64,000 nucleotides of DNA from Parapedobacter luteus (GTDB lineage: Bacteria; Bacteroidota; Bacteroidia; Sphingobacteriales; Sphingobacteriaceae): positions 682,001 to 746,000 of the forward strand of contig NZ_FUYS01000001.1 of assembly GCF_900168055.1 (NCBI RefSeq), in the 5' to 3' direction. Below the pieces are notes generated by a model, which was not told the DNA's origin, did no database searches, and saw only the letters and a list, made by a program, of their open reading frames with translations. Position numbers and translations under genes: made by a program. This document shows, in pieces, positions 48,550 through 63,798 of this stretch (position 1 is its first letter; each line of letters begins with the position of its first letter).

Positions 48550-50322
48550 TTAATATCCCGGATTTTGGGTCAGCGTCGGTATTCCACCGATCGAACTATT
48601 GATGATTTCCGTCTGTGGCACCGGGAGATATTCACTCTTTCCCCGTGTAAACGAGGCACCATTAAGATACGTCCGCTTTTCTTTTTCCGTTAGGAAATAG
48701 CTGTTCAACACCTGATCGGCGACCTCCCAACGGACGAGGTCGTAAAACCGGTGGCCTTCCATGGCCAATTCCAGCCGCCGTTCAAACCGGATGGCTTGCA
48801 TGGCGTAATCTTTCGAAGGCCAGGAAGCCGTATAAGGTTCAATATGATAGTTGGCCGCTGGAGCGTCCGTGTCCGCGCCATTGTCATCTAATTTTTTGAC
48901 GTAGCAACCATTCTTGGCGCGGTTCCGAACCTGGTTTACGTAGGCGCGCGCCTTTTCCAAATCGCCCAGCTCCGCTTCGCACTCCGCGGCCCACAGCAAT
49001 ACATCAGCAAAGCGGATGACCGTATAGTTGTTGGCATTCGGACCACCAGCCCATCCCGTGGTGGTAGATTGCGTACCTTGTTCTTCTTTCCGGTAGACAC
49101 GTTTTTTAGGCGAATACGGCCCGCCATCGCCAGCAGGGTTTACCCAGGTCTCACCGCCATGAGGACCCCAGTCGAGGTAGGCGATACCCCTTCTTCCCAC
49201 GGTATGATCCAGCCGTGGGTCCAGAGGCGTCTCTCCATCAGGTTCGAAGGGTTCGGAAGACCGGATGCCCTCGTCGTTCTTCAGGTCGCTGTCGTTAAAC
49301 GAATCAAACAAGGGAAGGCCGTCAGCTGAAGTTTTAAAGGCATTTACCAAGTTTTGCGATGGTTGGAAGAACCCGCAGCATTGACCTGGCCCCACCAACG
49401 GAAAATTCAGGTGTTCGCCGTAGTTCGCGTTCAACGGCCCACCGCTGCCATCGTTTACCGACATCTGTACAGCAAATACAGACTCTTTGGAGTTTTTGGT
49501 TGCGATGTTGAAATTATCGTAATAACAGTCATTCAGGCCATATTTCAAGCCTCCGGAGGTGACACCGTTGGCAATGATGTCGTCAAGTAGCGTTTTTGCT
49601 TCCACAAACTTCTGCTGAAAAAGGTAGCACTTGGCCAGGAAAGCCTTAGCTGCCCAGGCGTTTGCCCGGCCTACCTCCGCTTGCGTCACCGGCAGGTTGT
49701 CCGCCGCAAACTGCAGGTCGGCTTCAATGAATGGCCATGCTTCCTGATCATTTGGCACGCGCGTATCAAACACCGTTTCGTCGATAATCGGGACACGGTA
49801 GTAGATTTTCCGCAGTTCAAACAAGTAGTATCCCCGCAGGAAACGAGCCTCCGCCGTCTTGCTGCTTACAAAATCAGGGTCAAGACCTTCCGTGTTTGCG
49901 ATTGTTCGCAAGACCTCGTTGGATCTGGAAATGCCGTCATAGAGTGCAATCCACTTATCCGGCACAAAATTATTGGTAGGCAGAATGCTATTACGCTCGA
50001 ATGCGTTCATCTCCGGTAGATCGGATTGCGTAGATCCTTTATATGCATCGTCCGACGCAACATCGCCGATCAACCAGTTGGTCACTGCCGAGGCCCGACC
50101 CTCATTCCGACCTGTCCATCCATCGGTACTGGCACCCACGCCGTCGAGCAACGAGTATGCACCAATGAGCAGTTTGTCAATGCCTTCGGGATTTTGCATC
50201 TGCACCTGGCTTGCTGTTCCCAACGGCGGTGTGCTGAAAAATTTTTCCGAACAAGCTGTGAATAATACCGCGATGATAATTCCCTTTCCGACGCGGCCGA
50301 TAATGTTTATGCTGTGTTTCAT
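48550..50322 (-). CDS. SusD/RagB family glycan-binding lipoprotein (locus A)
   Basis: A 590-residue surface lipoprotein: lipobox VLFTAC-SEK (Cys24), then a SusD_N-like region (about 25-250; NEVLRTIANTEGL, FLRGYYLFELRKIY) and the SusD C-terminal domain (about 300-590; NNYTVIRFADVLLWAAECEAELGD, FERRLELAMEGHRFYDLVRW). TPR-like helices are visible. It caps the SusC channel and binds sugar at the cell surface. It follows SusC by 20 nt and ends in the usual LTQNPGY. Ligand inferred from the hydrolases downstream. Confidence 0.94.
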   Translation of the reverse strand: MKHSINIIGRVGKGIIIAVLFTACSEKFFSTPPLGTASQVQMQNPEGIDKLLIGAYSLLDGVGASTDGWTGRNEGRASAVTNWLIGDVASDDAYKGSTQSDLPEMNAFERNSILPTNNFVPDKWIALYDGISRSNEVLRTIANTEGLDPDFVSSKTAEARFLRGYYLFELRKIYYRVPIIDETVFDTRVPNDQEAWPFIEADLQFAADNLPVTQAEVGRANAWAAKAFLAKCYLFQQKFVEAKTLLDDIIANGVTSGGLKYGLNDCYYDNFNIATKNSKESVFAVQMSVNDGSGGPLNANYGEHLNFPLVGPGQCCGFFQPSQNLVNAFKTSADGLPLFDSFNDSDLKNDEGIRSSEPFEPDGETPLDPRLDHTVGRRGIAYLDWGPHGGETWVNPAGDGGPYSPKKRVYRKEEQGTQSTTTGWAGGPNANNYTVIRFADVLLWAAECEAELGDLEKARAYVNQVRNRAKNGCYVKKLDDNGADTDAPAANYHIEPYTASWPSKDYAMQAIRFERRLELAMEGHRFYDLVRWEVADQVLNSYFLTEKEKRTYLNGASFTRGKSEYLPVPQTEIINSSIGGIPTLTQNPGY

Positions 50323-50342: not shown

Positions 50343-53300
50343 TTAAAAACCGACAGTTAGCCCTAGGTTAAAGGATTGAGCGAGTGGATATATCCCCCTG
50401 TCCACGCCAATATCACGGTCCGCACCGGCACCGTATTGCGACAGGTTGACTTCCGGATCCAAGCCGTTATAATTCGTCAATGTGAAGAAGTTGGTGGCCT
50501 GTACGTAGACGCGCAATTGCTGCATATTCAACCGGCTAGACCACCGAGAAGGAAATGTATAGCCTATCATCACATTTTTCCCACGCAGGTATGACCCATC
50601 TTCTATGAAGTAGGTAGATGCCTGTGACTCAAAACCCGTAGCAATTGAGTTTGTCTTCGGTAGGGTTGCATTGGGGTTTTCAGGACTCCAGCTGTCCAAC
50701 ATCCGGACACTCCGGTTGCCGGTAAGGTTCTGAAAATCTGTCCACCACTTTTGGTAATTGTAAATGTCATTGCCTTGTACACCCTGTATAAACACGGATA
50801 AGTCAAATGATTTGTAGCTCACACTGAGGTTCAAGCCATAGGTAAAGTCGGGATGCGGGTTGCCAATAAACGATTCATCGTTTGCATCGATGACACCGTT
50901 TTGATCGATATCACGAAACTTGAACCGTCCTGGTTGGTTGTACAGTGCCCGGTCGCCGCCCTGCGTCGCATGCGCGTCAGCCTCCTCTTGTGTCTGGAAG
51001 ATGCCATCAATGGTATACCCATAGAAGGCTGAAATGGGTTGGCCTACTGCGGTACGGGTGAAAGGAGCTTGCCTAGTGGAAAATCCCGGAATGAAGGTTT
51101 CCGAGCCCCCATATAGTTCAGTGACCCGGTTGCGGTATACCGACCAGTTGAGTCCCACGTCATATCGCCAGTTGCTGTTTTGTGATCTGTTGCGGTAGTT
51201 GAGGGCGATATCCAGGCCTTTGTTTTGAATACCGCCAATATTTACGGCAGGCCTGCGATTCTGGCCGTCGGTAGCCGGGCTCGGTATCACCAGCAGCAGA
51301 TCGGAAGATTTCCGGTTATAGGCGTCCACCGTTACGGCAAATTTACCGTTAAAAACGCTCAGGTCTACACCCAGGTTGGTCATGGTTTGTGCCTCCCAAC
51401 GTGCATCGGGGTTGCCCTGTGCGCCAATATAGAAGCCGGGCACCAGTGCATTGTTCTGGCCATCGATGGAATAGGATGACGTATGCAGGTTTGTCGCATA
51501 GGTAGTAAACTGATTGTAGCTATCAATCTCTTGGTTGCCGGTTTGTCCCCAGCCACCCCTAAGTTTCAGCTCATCGATAAATGTTACCCTTTCCAGGAAT
51601 GGTTCTTCACTGAGTCTCCAGCCGACACTGAAAGCGGGGAACGTACCCCATCGGTTGGCCGTCGAAAAGCGGGAGGATGCATCCCGCCGGATGGTCGCCG
51701 ATACCAGGTATTTTTCATCAAGGTTATAATCCGCTTTGCCAAAGTAGGAGAACAGGCGGGAGTCCGACCCGCCACCCGTGGCATTTAGCAGGGTTGTTCC
51801 CGCGTTGAGGTAGCGGTAGTTGATATCTTCAAAGGCAAAGTCTGCTTTTTCTGTGATGGTATTTCTGAATCTGCTCTTCACGGCCTCTGTGCCGGCCAGT
51901 ACGTCCAGGCGATGCCGATTGCCGAACGTCTTCTGATAACCCACGGTATTGGTCCACACCACATTCGTCGTGTAGCTGTTGGTCACACTCAACTGGGCCT
52001 GTTGTGGTAGCAGGAAAGATTCAGGCGCGGCGGGCGAAAAGTTGGAGAAATTAAAGTTCGCGTAGTCGATGCCCAAACTGGTTTTTAGCGTCAGTCCATA
52101 GCCCAACTTCGCCTCAGCAAACGCATTCCCGAATAACCGGGCATTGTATGCGTGATTATCCTTATTGCGGTATTGCCTGGTATAAGGATGATCTGCCCAG
52201 GCCCGGCCGCCCGCAAAATTACCCCCTACGTCGTACACCGGCATGAATGGTGCCATTTGGTAAGCCAATGCCGGACTGTTTTCCGCGCGGATGATGGTAG
52301 ACACATTGTCGGTATACGCAAACTGCAGGTTTTCGCCTATGGTGAGGACGTCCATGATGTTGAACGTCGTGTTTGCCCTTACTGAATAGCGTTTAAAATT
52401 GGTATGCTTGAAAATCCCCTCTTGGTCATAGTATCCGCCCGTAATGGCGTAGGTGTTTTTATTGCTGCCGCCAGACACGCTGAGGTTGTGGCTTTGTATG
52501 TGTCCGAGCTGGGTGACCACGTCCCACCAATCGGTTCCCGCTTTGTTTGTTTTAGCAAACATAAATTTCGTGGTACCGAATCCCGGTGCGGTTGGGTCAT
52601 TTGTGTAGTTTTCAAGCGCAACACGGGGATCTCCCTCCATGGCACCACCCTGCAGCAGGAGGTAATCCGGTATGACTGGGTTGGGGCCGCTGCCAAATGT
52701 AGCGTCGGCCGGGTTTCCGGTCGTTGGATCCACATTGCCGATATTGCGGTAGTTTTCCCACGTCAAATCGGCAAATTGTTGTGGTGAAAGCATTTCTGGG
52801 CCGCTTGATGGCCGCTGGACGCCGTAGAAGGACTCGACAGTCAGCCTGGACCTGCCTTCCTTTCCTTTTTTAGTCGTGATAATGACCACGCCATTGCTCG
52901 CCCGAGCCCCATAAATGGACGCCGACGATGCATCTTTCAAGATTTGCATGGATTCGATATCGTTCGGGTTGATTTGGTTCAATCCACCTTGTGTAGGCAC
53001 GCCATCGATGATATACAACGGATCGTTACCACCGGTAATCGAACCCACGCCCCGGATGCGTACCATCACATTGCCACCGGGGGTACCATCATTTCCTACC
53101 GTCACGCCGGCTACCCGGCCCTGCAATTGTTGGGCAAAATTGTTAGCGGGAACTTGCTTCAGTTCATCTACCGCCACTACGGCGACAGCGCCGGTGATGC
53201 TCGCCTTCTTTTGGGTGGTGTATCCTACCACCACCACCTCATCCAGATCGCTCACCGTGGCTTCCATCGTTACATTTACGACCCGTTGATTGGTTAAGGT

Positions 53301-53831
53301 GCGCTCCACGGTTTCATATCCCAATATGGTAAACACCAATGTTGAAGCCTGATCCGGTACGGTGATTCGGTAATTCCCGCCCGCGTCGGTCGTTGTTGCG
53401 GCCGTTGTACCCCTTGCTGCTACGGTCACGCCCGCTAGCGCCGTTCCGGACTGATCGGTCACCTTTCCGGAAATCTCTAAGTTTTGTTGCGTGGATTCAC
53501 GTTGAGGTTTTGTGGGCGACTTATGCGCGATAACAATAGTCTCTTCTTCGATGGACCAGACCAGGTCACGGTCGGCCAAGATTTGGTCCATCACATGGCG
53601 TAGGTCGGCCTGCTTGACGATCGCATTGATACGCGTGGCGGCGATATCATCGCCACGGAAGAAAAACGAGTAGCCCTGCTGCCGTTGGATTTCTTTCATC
53701 ACCTCGCGCAGCGTGGTATTTTTGACGTTGAGCGTGATCTTTTGTGCCTTGCTTTCCGCAATAGTATTGAAAGTAAACGCAATACTCAAGAAAATCACTA
53801 ATTTCATAATCAGCAATGATCGATAAATCAT
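50343..53831 (-). CDS. SusC/RagA family TonB-dependent transporter with STN domain (locus A)
   Basis: A 1162-residue outer-membrane transporter. Signal peptide (to about ESKAQ), STN domain (about 31-105; KITLNVKNTTLREVMKEIQ), a carboxypeptidase-regulatory-like domain (about 120-200), plug with the SusC motifs (QLQGRVAGVTV, SIYGARASNGVVIITTKKG) and a barrel to the end. The STN domain is the part that contacts FecR-type anti-sigma factors in the periplasm, and the fecR gene lies just upstream. Import is of oligosaccharides trimmed at the surface. Confidence 0.95.
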   Translation of the reverse strand: MIYRSLLIMKLVIFLSIAFTFNTIAESKAQKITLNVKNTTLREVMKEIQRQQGYSFFFRGDDIAATRINAIVKQADLRHVMDQILADRDLVWSIEEETIVIAHKSPTKPQRESTQQNLEISGKVTDQSGTALAGVTVAARGTTAATTTDAGGNYRITVPDQASTLVFTILGYETVERTLTNQRVVNVTMEATVSDLDEVVVVGYTTQKKASITGAVAVVAVDELKQVPANNFAQQLQGRVAGVTVGNDGTPGGNVMVRIRGVGSITGGNDPLYIIDGVPTQGGLNQINPNDIESMQILKDASSASIYGARASNGVVIITTKKGKEGRSRLTVESFYGVQRPSSGPEMLSPQQFADLTWENYRNIGNVDPTTGNPADATFGSGPNPVIPDYLLLQGGAMEGDPRVALENYTNDPTAPGFGTTKFMFAKTNKAGTDWWDVVTQLGHIQSHNLSVSGGSNKNTYAITGGYYDQEGIFKHTNFKRYSVRANTTFNIMDVLTIGENLQFAYTDNVSTIIRAENSPALAYQMAPFMPVYDVGGNFAGGRAWADHPYTRQYRNKDNHAYNARLFGNAFAEAKLGYGLTLKTSLGIDYANFNFSNFSPAAPESFLLPQQAQLSVTNSYTTNVVWTNTVGYQKTFGNRHRLDVLAGTEAVKSRFRNTITEKADFAFEDINYRYLNAGTTLLNATGGGSDSRLFSYFGKADYNLDEKYLVSATIRRDASSRFSTANRWGTFPAFSVGWRLSEEPFLERVTFIDELKLRGGWGQTGNQEIDSYNQFTTYATNLHTSSYSIDGQNNALVPGFYIGAQGNPDARWEAQTMTNLGVDLSVFNGKFAVTVDAYNRKSSDLLLVIPSPATDGQNRRPAVNIGGIQNKGLDIALNYRNRSQNSNWRYDVGLNWSVYRNRVTELYGGSETFIPGFSTRQAPFTRTAVGQPISAFYGYTIDGIFQTQEEADAHATQGGDRALYNQPGRFKFRDIDQNGVIDANDESFIGNPHPDFTYGLNLSVSYKSFDLSVFIQGVQGNDIYNYQKWWTDFQNLTGNRSVRMLDSWSPENPNATLPKTNSIATGFESQASTYFIEDGSYLRGKNVMIGYTFPSRWSSRLNMQQLRVYVQATNFFTLTNYNGLDPEVNLSQYGAGADRDIGVDRGIYPLAQSFNLGLTVGF

Positions 53832-53838
53832 ATATTTG
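53831..53838 (+). promoter_or_regulatory. Possible promoter of an antisense RNA
   Basis: TATATTTG on the rightward strand fits TAnnTTTG and points away from the leftward susC gene, overlapping its start codon by one base. No clear -33 element upstream within susC. Confidence 0.35.
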
Positions 53839-53844
53839 TCTTGT

Positions 53845-53946
53845 TTGGATGGTGAATAAATGGGTTAAAGGGAGTGTTTATAACGCTCCGCAACACTTAT
53901 CCAGACAGCATTATCGGATGGTGTCGCGAGCATCATCCGTTTTTTG
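53845..53946 (+). ncRNA. Candidate small RNA antisense to the susC leader
   Basis: Proposed from two signals: the TATATTTG element (start of transcription near 53845) and a strong rightward terminator (53915-53945). Every gene nearby is leftward, so the terminator has no other evident use. Length would be about 100 bases, complementary to the leader of susC. Antisense RNAs at this position, such as DonS, are known from Bacteroides polysaccharide loci. No coding frame of note. Confidence 0.4.
53915..53945 (+). terminator. Rightward rho-independent terminator between fecR and susC
   Basis: CGGATGGTG pairs with CATCATCCG (one G-T) around TCGCGAG and is followed by six T. The T-tract lies only on the rightward side, opposite to the surrounding genes. 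Confidence 0.65.
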
Positions 53947-54021: not shown

Positions 54022-55227
54022 TTATTCACTTAATACGATTAATTGGTTTCTACCGTTGATTTGGGTTATTTCAAACCGGACGCCGCTTTTTTCCAGGATT
54101 TTCAAAATGGAGGCTAGGGATTTATCCCGTCCGATCATGCCGAAAAAACGCACTATGGGCATTCGTCCCCGATATACCACGTCGATATCATACCATCGGC
54201 CCAGTTGCGCAAATGCCGCCTGCGGCGACAGGCCGTCAAAATAGAACAAGCCGTCTTTCCAAGCGGTAAAGAGCTCGGTGTCTACTTTTTCAATAGCGGT
54301 AGTCGTTCCGCGTGTCGTGCTCTGTTCGCCTGGTGCGAGCTGGTAAATGGCATTGCGGACCGTCCTGCTGTTTGCGGCGAGGTTGACGATTTGCACGGCC
54401 CCCTCCACGAGCGTAGTTTTGGTTTCCGGGTCATCCGGATAGGCGGAGATGTTGAACTCCGTGCCCAGCACCTCGATTTCCTGCCCGCCGCTGATCACCT
54501 TAAACGGCTTGTCGGCGTCTTTCATCACGGAGAAATACGCTTCGCCGGTGATATCTACCACGCGCTCGTTGCCGGTAAATTTGCTGGGATATTTCAGCGC
54601 GCTATTGGCGTTGAGCCATACGGTGGAACCATCGGGAAGGGTCACGTGATACGTACCTCCTTTGGGCGTCGACAAGGTCAGTATCTCGGCGGGTGCCGAC
54701 GTCCAGTTACCATCGACGATATGCGGCACAATCATTGTGGCACCGTCGGCGTAGGTGATGTTGTCTTCGCCTACGATGATTCCTTTTTGAGACACACTTA
54801 AGTCAATTTTCCTACCATCAGCCAACGTCAGGGTAGCCCGATTCCCGCCGGGGGGGATTGCTTCCGGTGTGATTTTCACGATAGCATCCGTTTCCGGGTG
54901 CTGCCCTCCGTCCGGCATTAGCCGATCGCCGAAAAAGAGCCACGTGCCCAGGAGTACGACAATCACGGCGGCGGCGTAAGGGAGCCATAGCTGCCACAAT
55001 GAATGGGTACGGGGATGACTATCCGCACCGACGGCGTCCAGGATTCGTGCCAGCATGCGCTGCCTTAGCTCCTCCGGTGTGTTGGCAAAAGACGTTTCTA
55101 TTTCATAGGAATCTTTAGCCATTTGCGCATTGAGCCACTGGTTGAGCTGTTCCTGCTCCGTGGGGGTGATACGACCATCGATCAGTTTTGCCGCCAATGT
55201 TTCTATTTCAGCACGAGACAATGCCAT
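54022..55227 (-). CDS. FecR family anti-sigma factor (locus A)
   Basis: A 401-residue inner-membrane regulator. N-terminal cytoplasmic sigma-binding part (about 1-85), one membrane helix (about 89-107; LPYAAAVIVVLLGTWLFFG), a FecR periplasmic domain (about 180-290; TLSTPKGGTYHVTLPDGSTV, VDITGEAYFSVMKDADKPF) and the C-terminal STN-contacting domain (about 325-400; ILKILEKSGVRFEITQING). It holds the ECF factor until the STN domain of SusC reports substrate. The gene lies between the ECF gene (68 nt) and susC (190 nt). Confidence 0.94.
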   Translation of the reverse strand: MALSRAEIETLAAKLIDGRITPTEQEQLNQWLNAQMAKDSYEIETSFANTPEELRQRMLARILDAVGADSHPRTHSLWQLWLPYAAAVIVVLLGTWLFFGDRLMPDGGQHPETDAIVKITPEAIPPGGNRATLTLADGRKIDLSVSQKGIIVGEDNITYADGATMIVPHIVDGNWTSAPAEILTLSTPKGGTYHVTLPDGSTVWLNANSALKYPSKFTGNERVVDITGEAYFSVMKDADKPFKVISGGQEIEVLGTEFNISAYPDDPETKTTLVEGAVQIVNLAANSRTVRNAIYQLAPGEQSTTRGTTTAIEKVDTELFTAWKDGLFYFDGLSPQAAFAQLGRWYDIDVVYRGRMPIVRFFGMIGRDKSLASILKILEKSGVRFEITQINGRNQLIVLSE

Positions 55228-55295: not shown

Positions 55296-55895
55296 TCACA
55301 ACCCACGCCCTGCTATCAACGCGAGCATCAGGGGTAAAAAAGCCAATAAGTCATTCCGGAGTTTTTTGTTGGCGTTTTTAAGGTGCATTTTCACGGTATT
55401 TTCAGATAAGTTTAGGGCTTCGGCTATGGCCTTCACGCTCATGTCCTGTTCCCGGCTCATTCGGAATACAAGTTGGCACTGCGGAGGCAGTCGGTTGATA
55501 CTCTGTTCGATACGTTGCCGCAATTCCTTCGCGATAAATGCACTCTCCGGCGATACGGCTTCCATCGGATCCGTCCATTCTTCTTGGTGCACTACTTCCT
55601 GGCGCCGTTGGTTGCGTGCCATCGCGCTCAGCGACTGATATTTGACTGCGACCGAAAGGTAGGTATTCAACGTGTGGCTAAGTTGGATGGTTTCCCGACG
55701 GTTCCATAGGCCAACGAATACGTTCTGCACGCATTCCTCCGCTTCCTCTGCGCTGCCCAACAAGTTAGCTGCCACTACAAACAACTTATCCCAATATCGG
55801 TTATAGATGGCCACCAAAGCCTTCTGTTTGCTTTGCTTCAGCAGCATCACCAGCTCATCATCGTTATAATCGGTATAGTTATAATCCGTGCTCAC
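55296..55895 (-). CDS. ECF sigma factor (SusC/FecR-associated, locus A)
   Basis: About 199 residues: region 2 (about 25-95; LLKQSKQKALVAIYNRYWDK, AEECVQNVFVGLWNRRETI) and region 4 (about 130-180; LPPQCQLVFRMSREQDMSVKAIAEALNLSENTVKMH). The C-terminal LLAFLPLMLALI is hydrophobic, common in this Bacteroidetes group. The frame opens at 55970, but the first 25 residues there look non-coding, so GTG 55895, preceded by AGGGG, was chosen. The start is uncertain. It should activate susC and the genes behind it when FecR releases it. Confidence 0.88.
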   Translation of the reverse strand: MSTDYNYTDYNDDELVMLLKQSKQKALVAIYNRYWDKLFVVAANLLGSAEEAEECVQNVFVGLWNRRETIQLSHTLNTYLSVAVKYQSLSAMARNQRRQEVVHQEEWTDPMEAVSPESAFIAKELRQRIEQSINRLPPQCQLVFRMSREQDMSVKAIAEALNLSENTVKMHLKNANKKLRNDLLAFLPLMLALIAGRGL

Positions 55896-56061
55896 ACCCC
55901 TGCAATTTGCAGCCCAAGTTAAGCATATTTTAGGGATGTACAATTCCTTTCCGCGTAGGCATTTTTCCAAAACTGAATCCGGCCCAATGGTGTTATTCAG
56001 ATTGATAGGCCATCAAGCGGGCAACCGGCTCGAATGATTGCAAAGAAATAAGGTTGTTATT

Positions 56062-60486: not shown

Positions 60487-63400
60487 CTATAAAATGCCTG
60501 CCCGTATGCCAATGCTGTAAATAGCCATTCTGGGATAGGCTCCGTTACCCCCGTCGCGCTCCGGATCCAATCCTTCCCACCTCGTGAAAGTAAACGCATC
60601 CTGCGCATTGACATAGATGCGCACATTTTCTATCCCCTTGGTGACTCGTGGGATGGTATAGCCAAGCTGGAGTGTCTTGATGCGCAAGAACGCGGCGTTG
60701 CTAAGCCACACGTCGCTGAGCACGGCATTTGCGCTGGCACCGGTCCACACCCGGGGAAAGCGGCTATTGGGATTGTCTGGTGTCCATCGGTTGTCCATGT
60801 ACTCCTGCCGTGGCGTTCCCAAGCTATTGTTTGAGCCATCCATCAGTACGGGGTAACCTTCCATGCCCGACACCCAACCGGTCCGTTTACCTACTCCCTG
60901 TGCCAGTAAGCTGAAGTCCCACCGTCTGAAGCGCAGATCAACCGTAAATGCGTAGTTCATGTGGGGAAACGGGTCGCCCAGATTCACTCGGTCCATTTCG
61001 TTGATCACGCCGTCGCCGTTTTGGTCAATATAACGAATGTCGCCAGGGAGCGTGTTGGGTAATTTGGCCGTCGTACTATTCACTTCCTCCTGCGTCTGGA
61101 AATAGCCATTGCTTTGATAACCATAATAGTTGTCCAGAGCGATCCCACGATACCAGATTCTATTTTCGTTGTCTTTAAAAATCAACGTATCGCTGGCACC
61201 GTATCCGGCTTTGAGTACCTGATTCCGGTTGTCAAACAGCATCCCGCTTACCGCATAGCCAAAGTCACCGAGTTGGTCCGACCAGCGTGCACTCAATTCC
61301 CAACCCTTGTTTTCCACCTCACCGATGTTGACGGCAGACTCCAGACCGTTGGATCCGGTAAGCGGCGGTACCGGGAACCGACCATAAATCAAGTCGTAGG
61401 AAAATTTGTGATAGATTTCTGCCGTCAGGCTCAGCCGATCGTTCAGGGTCGCAACGTCCAACCCGACATTCCATTGCCGTTGTTTCTCCCAGCTAAATTC
61501 AGGATTCGGTACACGCTGCGCCCAGCCCCAGTCGTCTACATCCTCCTGCCAGAGGTAAGGATCCACATTTTCATTACCTATCAATCCATATGAAAAGCGC
61601 AATTTTAAATTTGTAATCGCACCCGATTCCCGCAAGCTGCTAAAAAAAGATTCGTTCTGAACGTTCCACGCTACGGCCGCCGATGGGAAAAAACCCCACC
61701 TATGCCCCGGAGCAAACTTGCTGCTGCCATCGGCACGGGCGGTGATTTCCAACAAATACCGGTTGTCAAAAGCATAATTGGCCTTACCGAAGAAAGAAGC
61801 CTTGCTCACTTCACGGTAGTCCGTATAGTTGTAGGTCATGATTTCCGAGCCGGCAATCAGGTAGAGCTTGTCTTTTTGCTGACGCAGTTCCTGCTCATAG
61901 TTCAGGTTGGCTCGGGCGGTCAGCTGGCTTACGCTTACCCCTTGTTCGGCGCCGACGTCATTGGTCCAGATGTCAGCGGGCTTTCCGTCACCATCGCGAA
62001 ACATGAATGTGCTCCGTTTCCATTTGGCCGATGATTTTTCAATTTTGTATGAAACGTTTCCTTCCAACGATAGGCCGGGGTTGATAAAATACCGTGGACG
62101 GAGGTTGATGGTGCTCACGTCATACATGTTGTTGCGTTCGCCGCCATACTTTATGGAAGCCAGCGGATTGAGGTTATTATGCAGAATATAGTGATCTGGA
62201 AGTTCGGAATCATAGAATATCGGTTGTGTAGGATTCATCCGCCAAGCATTTGCATAGAGGCCGTTACCATCGCTATTGGCCATCAAGCGATTCACTTGAA
62301 GACGATGGGCATAAAAATCAGCCAATAAAACAAATTTATCTGCAACATTGACGTTAGTGTTGAACCGGGCACTGAATTTTTCAGAGCCTTCATAGTCGTT
62401 AAGACCATGTTCATTGATATAACCCAGCATAAGGTTGAATGTGCCCACGCCGCCGCCGCCAGACACGCTTGCGGTGGTATTATGTGAGCCCGCCCGCCGT
62501 TCCATGACTTCGCCCAGCCAATCGGTCTGCGTATATTGGCCTTGGTCGGCCCGGGCAATGTCTTCCGTAGAGAACAGCGGCGTTTGCCCCTGTATGGTGC
62601 GCGCTTCATTGTTTAGCCGCATATAATCGGCCGCGTTTACCCAATTTGGTAAATCGATAGCACTGTTTATTGCTGTCCAGGAGTGGAGATCTACCCTGAA
62701 CTGGCCGGTGGAACCTCGTTTCGTTTCAATGATGATTACCCCATTTGCTCCTCGCGACCCGTATAACGATGCCGAAGCAGCGTCCTTGAGTACGCTGATG
62801 CTTTTGATCTGGTTGGGATCCAGATCGGTAAGGTTTTGCTCCATTCCGTCTACAATCACCAATGGATCTGCGTTTTGCAGCGTGCTGGTACCTCGGATAG
62901 CGATGGGCCCCGGTACACTACCAGGTAGGTTTGTGCCCTGCATCATCGTCACGCCTGGCAATGTACCGCTGAAAGCCTCCTGAAGTTTAAATATCGGCCT
63001 ATTTGTTGCCCTGTCCATGTTCAGTTCGGCAACTGAAGAGGCCACATGGCGGCGCTCGATGGTGCTATAGCCCGTTACGACCACCTCTTCTATCTGTTGG
63101 CTTGCCTCTTGGAGTACTACGTCCACCTTAGACCGTTCTCCAATGCTAATTTCTGTGTCTGCAAAGCCAATAAGGCTATAGATCAGCGTAACGGCACCCG
63201 TCGCTTGAATGCGATACCGGCCGTCTTCGTCTGTTTGGGCTCCAATATTGGTTCCCTTTACCAATACGCTCACGCCGGCCAGCGGTACACCTTTGTTGTC
63301 GCGGACGATTCCTTCGACTGCGCGTTGCTGGTTGACACCCTTGGCCTTCACAGTCACCTGATGGCCCGAAATCGTGAAATCCAGTTGTTGTTCGCCAAGT

Positions 63401-63702
63401 ACCGATTTGAGCAACTGGCGCATGTCGGTATTAGTCGCGGACACACTGATGGTTTTGCCTTTGACCAATCCATCGTTATAGAAAAAAACATAGTCTGTTT
63501 GTTGTTGGAGCTCAGCGAATAACTGGTTCAGCGTACCCCGTTCGATGGTGACGGTGACGGTTTGCGAATAGGTATTGGCATGCGCAGCAACGAGTCCTGC
63601 AAAAAATAGCATGGCGACTGTTTTGGTCATGGTCCATATTGTTTTAAACTTTCCGCCATGAAGACCCATGAGCCTCCAATGGCAAGGATTTTTTCGTATC
63701 AT
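60487..63702 (-). CDS. SusC/RagA family TonB-dependent transporter with STN domain (locus B)
   Basis: A 1071-residue outer-membrane transporter: long N-terminus and signal peptide (to about AHANTYSQ; a second Met at residue 12 is an alternative start), STN domain (about 47-118; RGTLNQLFAELQQQTDYVFF), carboxypeptidase-regulatory-like domain (about 125-205), EEVVVTGY before the plug, plug motifs (FSGTLPGVTMMQG, ASLYGSRGANGVIIIETKRG) and barrel. The STN domain and the fecR gene upstream indicate trans-envelope regulation. Similar in layout to the locus A SusC but clearly different in sequence. Confidence 0.95.
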   Translation of the reverse strand: MIRKNPCHWRLMGLHGGKFKTIWTMTKTVAMLFFAGLVAAHANTYSQTVTVTIERGTLNQLFAELQQQTDYVFFYNDGLVKGKTISVSATNTDMRQLLKSVLGEQQLDFTISGHQVTVKAKGVNQQRAVEGIVRDNKGVPLAGVSVLVKGTNIGAQTDEDGRYRIQATGAVTLIYSLIGFADTEISIGERSKVDVVLQEASQQIEEVVVTGYSTIERRHVASSVAELNMDRATNRPIFKLQEAFSGTLPGVTMMQGTNLPGSVPGPIAIRGTSTLQNADPLVIVDGMEQNLTDLDPNQIKSISVLKDAASASLYGSRGANGVIIIETKRGSTGQFRVDLHSWTAINSAIDLPNWVNAADYMRLNNEARTIQGQTPLFSTEDIARADQGQYTQTDWLGEVMERRAGSHNTTASVSGGGGVGTFNLMLGYINEHGLNDYEGSEKFSARFNTNVNVADKFVLLADFYAHRLQVNRLMANSDGNGLYANAWRMNPTQPIFYDSELPDHYILHNNLNPLASIKYGGERNNMYDVSTINLRPRYFINPGLSLEGNVSYKIEKSSAKWKRSTFMFRDGDGKPADIWTNDVGAEQGVSVSQLTARANLNYEQELRQQKDKLYLIAGSEIMTYNYTDYREVSKASFFGKANYAFDNRYLLEITARADGSSKFAPGHRWGFFPSAAVAWNVQNESFFSSLRESGAITNLKLRFSYGLIGNENVDPYLWQEDVDDWGWAQRVPNPEFSWEKQRQWNVGLDVATLNDRLSLTAEIYHKFSYDLIYGRFPVPPLTGSNGLESAVNIGEVENKGWELSARWSDQLGDFGYAVSGMLFDNRNQVLKAGYGASDTLIFKDNENRIWYRGIALDNYYGYQSNGYFQTQEEVNSTTAKLPNTLPGDIRYIDQNGDGVINEMDRVNLGDPFPHMNYAFTVDLRFRRWDFSLLAQGVGKRTGWVSGMEGYPVLMDGSNNSLGTPRQEYMDNRWTPDNPNSRFPRVWTGASANAVLSDVWLSNAAFLRIKTLQLGYTIPRVTKGIENVRIYVNAQDAFTFTRWEGLDPERDGGNGAYPRMAIYSIGIRAGIL

Positions 63703-63747
63703 TGCATATAGGTTATTTAATTAAATGATTGCGTTAAGTGATCTTAG

Positions 63748-63773
63748 CGGGTGGGTGCTGGAACACCTACCCG
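63748..63773. other. Hairpin between fecR and susC (locus B)
   Basis: CGGGTGGGTG pairs with CACCTACCCG (one G-T) around CTGGAA. The rightward side continues TTCTCGTTT, a weak T-rich tail. It holds the same position as the terminator at 53915-53945 of locus A, though the sequence differs. No TAnnTTTG element was found on its rightward-strand upstream side. Confidence 0.5.
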
Positions 63774-63798
63774 TTCTCGTTTATAACTGGTCGTATGC

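Follow-up and report, generated by a model that had tools for sequence, protein, structure and literature searches.

A candidate cis-antisense RNA of the DonS type over a fecR-linked susC leader in Parapedobacter luteus, with a matching anatomy at fecR-susC junctions across the Bacteroidota

Analysis of a 64,000-nucleotide stretch (the window) of the 4.83 Mb Parapedobacter luteus genome revealed a candidate cis-antisense repressor of the DonS type over the leader of a susC gene, a reading to which a probability of roughly 0.8 was assigned from the DNA sequence. A housekeeping-type promoter, with its -7 element over the susC start codon, would make a structured RNA of ~100 nt directed away from susC. 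This RNA would stop at an intrinsic terminator short of fecR and be complementary over its whole length to the susC leader immediately before the start codon. Through pairing with this leader, transcriptional interference, or both, the predicted RNA would most likely hold susC, and hence susD, low until FecI/FecR/STN signalling drives strong sense transcription. An antisense RNA at the susC leader, transcribed from a promoter over the susC start codon, is also probably an ancient and standard part of FecI-FecR-SusC signalling across the Bacteroidota (Bacteroidales, Sphingobacteriales, Chitinophagales, Cytophagales, and Flavobacteriales) and not a Bacteroides speciality.

Gene Context and Anatomy of the Junction

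The presumed target susC (50343-53831, - strand) codes for a TonB-dependent receptor with an STN signalling domain, as expected for a receptor talking to FecR. Upstream on the same strand are the anti-sigma gene fecR (54022-55227) and a FecI-type ECF sigma factor gene (55296-55970), and downstream is susD (48550-50322), followed by a row of genes for a GH32-like protein, a PQQ dehydrogenase, and an apiosidase-like protein. The + strand gene closest to the junction is ligD, starting at 56038, whereas fecR, susC, and susD share the - strand.

The candidate -7 promoter element TATATTTG (TAnnTTTG; 53831-53838, + strand) shares one base with the susC start codon, its first T being the complement of the A in the ATG (53831, - strand). 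At a spacing of 76 nt lies an intrinsic terminator (53915-53945, + strand) composed of a 10-bp stem-loop, CGGATGGTGT-CGCGA-GCATCATCCG (53915-53939), and the tract TTTTTT (53940-53945). The original prediction had placed such an element and a T-tailed terminator at these sites, opposite to the nearby genes, and both were confirmed as the sole pair of their kind: among 58 TAnnTTTG sites on the two strands of the window, a strong terminator 45-100 nt on was found for TATATTTG only, and 800 kb of the same genome taken as control sequence gave 10 terminators at that distance for 661 TAnnTTTG sites. A generic sigma-70 scan left the TATATTTG promoter unscored, as would be anticipated for Bacteroidota, where that consensus is not in use.

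The predicted antisense RNA spans 53844-53945 (+ strand), with the 5' end taken from the usual spacing after TAnnTTTG and the 3' end from the T-tract, and thus covers about -13 to -114 relative to susC and ends 76 nt before reaching the fecR stop; its overlap with the real susC mRNA could be short. Folding of this RNA (101 nt) gave -33.2 kcal/mol (z -3.67), beating 200 of 200 shuffles, and included a 5' hairpin GGAGTG-TTTATAA-CGCTCC (53871-53889, + strand). Rfam searches with the window and 18 related loci gave nothing reaching the gathering threshold, and the best matches near the site were weak (E 0.13 or worse).

A further antisense-oriented hairpin, AGCGGGTGGGTG-CTGGAA-CACCTACCCGTT (63746-63775, + strand), lies at the window's second fecR-susC junction (63703-63798; susC 60487-63702). 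Its T tail was weak and no TAnnTTTG was seen, so that this copy is perhaps degenerate or differently promoted. Near-identical terminator stems of the CATCATCC type were observed at three junctions of the genome (L023, L024, and 53915-53939 of the window), and each of the RNAs predicted for these junctions might pair in trans with the leaders of the others.

Relationship to Known Antisense RNAs

DonS is one of a Bacteroides family of cis-antisense RNAs of 78-128 nt that are divergent to and repress susC (PMC7366714), and 32 antisense RNAs associated with polysaccharide utilization loci (PULs) have been described in B. thetaiotaomicron, with both negative and positive correlations with susC (PMC10994844). 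The mechanism of DonS was called unknown (PMC11697453). No report of such RNAs outside Bacteroides was found in the open-access literature, and the best reading of what is new here is this DonS-type member together with the wider taxonomic reach.

The window RNA was likened to the DonS type by anatomy rather than by DonS sequence and was itself predicted from DNA. It would share with this type the divergent orientation on the opposite strand over the susC 5' region, a predicted length of ~102 nt that falls in the published range (PMC7366714), a locus under ECF sigma/anti-sigma genes, an intrinsic terminator, and a promoter of the sigma-ABfr type (a type that often has TTTG at -33), here with a conserved TAnnTTTG and a weak -33 box. 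The likeness claimed in the original prediction was supported by Bacteroides xylanisolvens, from the genus of the measured DonS-type RNAs, where junctions displayed the same layout and promoter register as the window. The window differs in that its host belongs to the Sphingobacteriales and not the Bacteroidales, and in the -7 element over the susC start codon, a feature not found in the published DonS-type accounts searched. From this anatomy the window RNA would work like DonS, and its transcription, the repression of susC, and the pairing step are what we infer from it; the positive correlation of some B. thetaiotaomicron RNAs of this type with their susC (PMC10994844) counts against the repressor reading.

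If the proposed function is true, many fecR-linked susC loci per genome would be held back by a further brake at the RNA level, beneath the sigma/anti-sigma switch, and this would hold in environmental as well as gut Bacteroidota. The signature of CAAANNT-ATG (the sense view of the 8-mer over the start codon) together with a strand-asymmetric hairpin lying 80-120 nt upstream would predict these RNAs from sequence and could open the unsolved DonS mechanism to comparative genetics. It would also be a caution that a regulator is taken away whenever a susC leader is cloned or replaced. The classical two-hairpin cis-antisense RNAs CopA, RNAI, and Sok control plasmid copy number or toxins; compared by description, they are like the predicted window RNA short, structured, fully leader-complementary, and ended by an intrinsic terminator, but differ from it in targeting copy number or toxins instead of a nutrient receptor.

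Conservation Among Parapedobacter Orthologs

The nearest named relative of the window was Parapedobacter koreensis (locus L070; 90% susC identity). Its terminator hairpin and T-tract, whose conservation in relatives had been proposed as a check, and TATATTTG were all unchanged, and the 3' arm of the 5' hairpin was CACTCC with pairing retained. Near-identity began ~50 nt before the start codon and extended 60 nt into susC, with divergence in the fecR-proximal part and variation in later susC codons. In six Parapedobacter loci forming another ortholog group (L063 and L035-L039), the 24-nt hairpin was invariant and the promoter region well kept; nothing else in the gap could be aligned, the sequence toward fecR included. 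A SusC 61% identical to that of the window was identified in another order, in Larkinella arboricola (L071), placing it above most relatives from outside Parapedobacter and making horizontal transfer possible; the fecR-to-susC gap of this locus was called at just 21 nt.

Distribution in the Genome and Across the Phylum

FecR_C was present at 42 places in the P. luteus genome, and 27 fecR-to-receptor junctions whose genes lie 80 nt or more apart were compared with 106 other codirectional gene pairs. Antisense-oriented terminators, called at a heuristic score of at least 28, occurred at 19 of the 27 junctions versus three control pairs (Fisher p 6e-14), an antisense TAnnTTTG no more than 40 nt from the start codon at 16 versus three (p 5e-11), and the two together at 12 versus none (p 5e-10), these p-values being overstated since paralogous loci are non-independent. 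The opposite trend was displayed by sense TAnnTTTG (2/27 junctions versus 44/106 control pairs), and these fecR-linked susC genes are therefore mostly without a housekeeping sense promoter.

Among 165 distinct fecR-susC junctions of the phylum whose gap reached 60 nt or more, terminators were antisense-oriented in 114 and sense-oriented in four. The link to fecR was visible on comparing susC genes with an upstream fecR (antisense terminator in 18/23) and without it (0/78, after removal of the fecR-linked L070 from the latter). Named genomes in which the anatomy was found include those of Bacteroides xylanisolvens, Parabacteroides gordonii, Draconibacterium, and Sunxiuqinia, of the Bacteroidales; Spirosoma, Larkinella, Dyadobacter, and Adhaeribacter, of the Cytophagales; and Sediminibacterium and Maribacter, of the Chitinophagales and Flavobacteriales, respectively. 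Among the junctions surveyed, the anatomy was missing from those with very short gaps and from a minority of those with long gaps. The occurrence in an order other than that of Bacteroides, put forward in the original prediction, held up, but not as a lone case, as the anatomy recurs throughout the genome and the five orders sampled.

Strand of Selection and Alternative Readings

The 8-mer might be a translation-start context of susC or a sense ECF promoter element instead of an antisense promoter, as would fit its overlap with the start codon and the sense motif TTAACC that is common 10-35 nt upstream of susC. This reading was considered unlikely. With start codons called by a simple rule, CAAANNT-ATG was present at 61/165 fecR-linked junctions but rare in other susC genes (2/80) and in other genes (2/375), and the start codon of fecR-susC junctions took varied registers against the fixed 8-mer (offsets 3, 7, 8, and 12), so that the 8-mer and not the start context seems to be kept. 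TTAACC was equally common in susC genes without fecR and is therefore a general feature of susC leaders; moreover, it had no second box at a fixed distance, and the antisense terminator would be left unexplained. As an antisense promoter, the 8-mer is accompanied by a -33 box that was weak or absent, with slight enrichment at ordinary-promoter spacing, and a -33 box reportedly could not be found in promoters of Flavobacterium johnsoniae either (PMC7366714). In 61 of the 68 junctions with the element, the reading frame from the ATG of CAAANNT-ATG ran open into the signal peptide; sense transcription must therefore begin upstream, and the susC leader would overlap the predicted antisense RNA.

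Because either strand of an inverted repeat can fold, the hairpin could in principle act as an attenuator of the fecR-susC mRNA or as a protein-binding palindrome. A strand-neutral test, free of terminator scores, took the best inverted repeat per junction with G.U and A.C mismatches treated equally and T-tracts ignored. Across 117 repeats, 123 G.U pairs fell on the antisense strand and nine on the sense strand (A.C on the antisense), and a run with at least five T among the eight bases following the stem was found for 98 antisense and four sense orientations. This asymmetry, obtained with no strand assumed, argues that the hairpin is maintained as antisense RNA by selection on an antisense transcript, and makes a sense-strand or DNA-level element very improbable. 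Covariation inside the stems was left out of the evidence for the reason that stems were found by pairing. The meeting of an AT-rich 8-mer and an unrelated inverted repeat by chance, for which the abundance of TAnnTTTG in the window might speak, is hardly credible, being contradicted by all the genome-wide, phylum-wide, and orthology tests.

A more serious alternative, possible although doubtful, is that antisense transcription over the susC leader itself, by collision or promoter occlusion, represses susC, with the RNA as a by-product and the terminator merely protecting fecR. At every locus the promoter faces against sense transcription, and the stretch from promoter to stem differs widely between loci, being not conserved, as such interference would allow; the terminator is needed under either reading. 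The RNA body at the window locus folds well, however, and the ~60 nt from terminator to start codon were largely kept in orthologs, features that interference by itself would not require; this is a weak argument, given that the same stretch is the susC leader. An antisense RNA of ~100 bases complementary to the susC leader, with the boundaries originally predicted, remains the favoured candidate from the G.U and T-tract asymmetry of the 117 hairpins, the ortholog conservation, the dependence on an upstream fecR, and the matching anatomy in Bacteroides.

Several further features of these junctions were recorded. The 5' arm of the 117 hairpins was purine-rich, and CCGG was commoner in it than in the ordinary terminators of this genome; a conserved loop motif TTGNC/GNCAA (31/117 versus 4/30 ordinary terminators) was unconvincing. 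The fecR-linked SusC proteins, including that of the window (53807-53831), carried an extension of ~5-40 residues before the signal peptide, open and in frame in the 61/68 junctions above, and this N-terminal extension coincides with the region holding the antisense promoter. A sense ECF promoter was rejected as a candidate, TTAACC being enriched 10-35 nt before susC but without a partner box at fixed spacing. The motif TAACC(A) within 45 nt of the start codon was found for 27% of fecR-linked susC genes, 26% of those without fecR, and 6% of other genes, with a window example at 53864-53870, and is perhaps a translation or leader signal.
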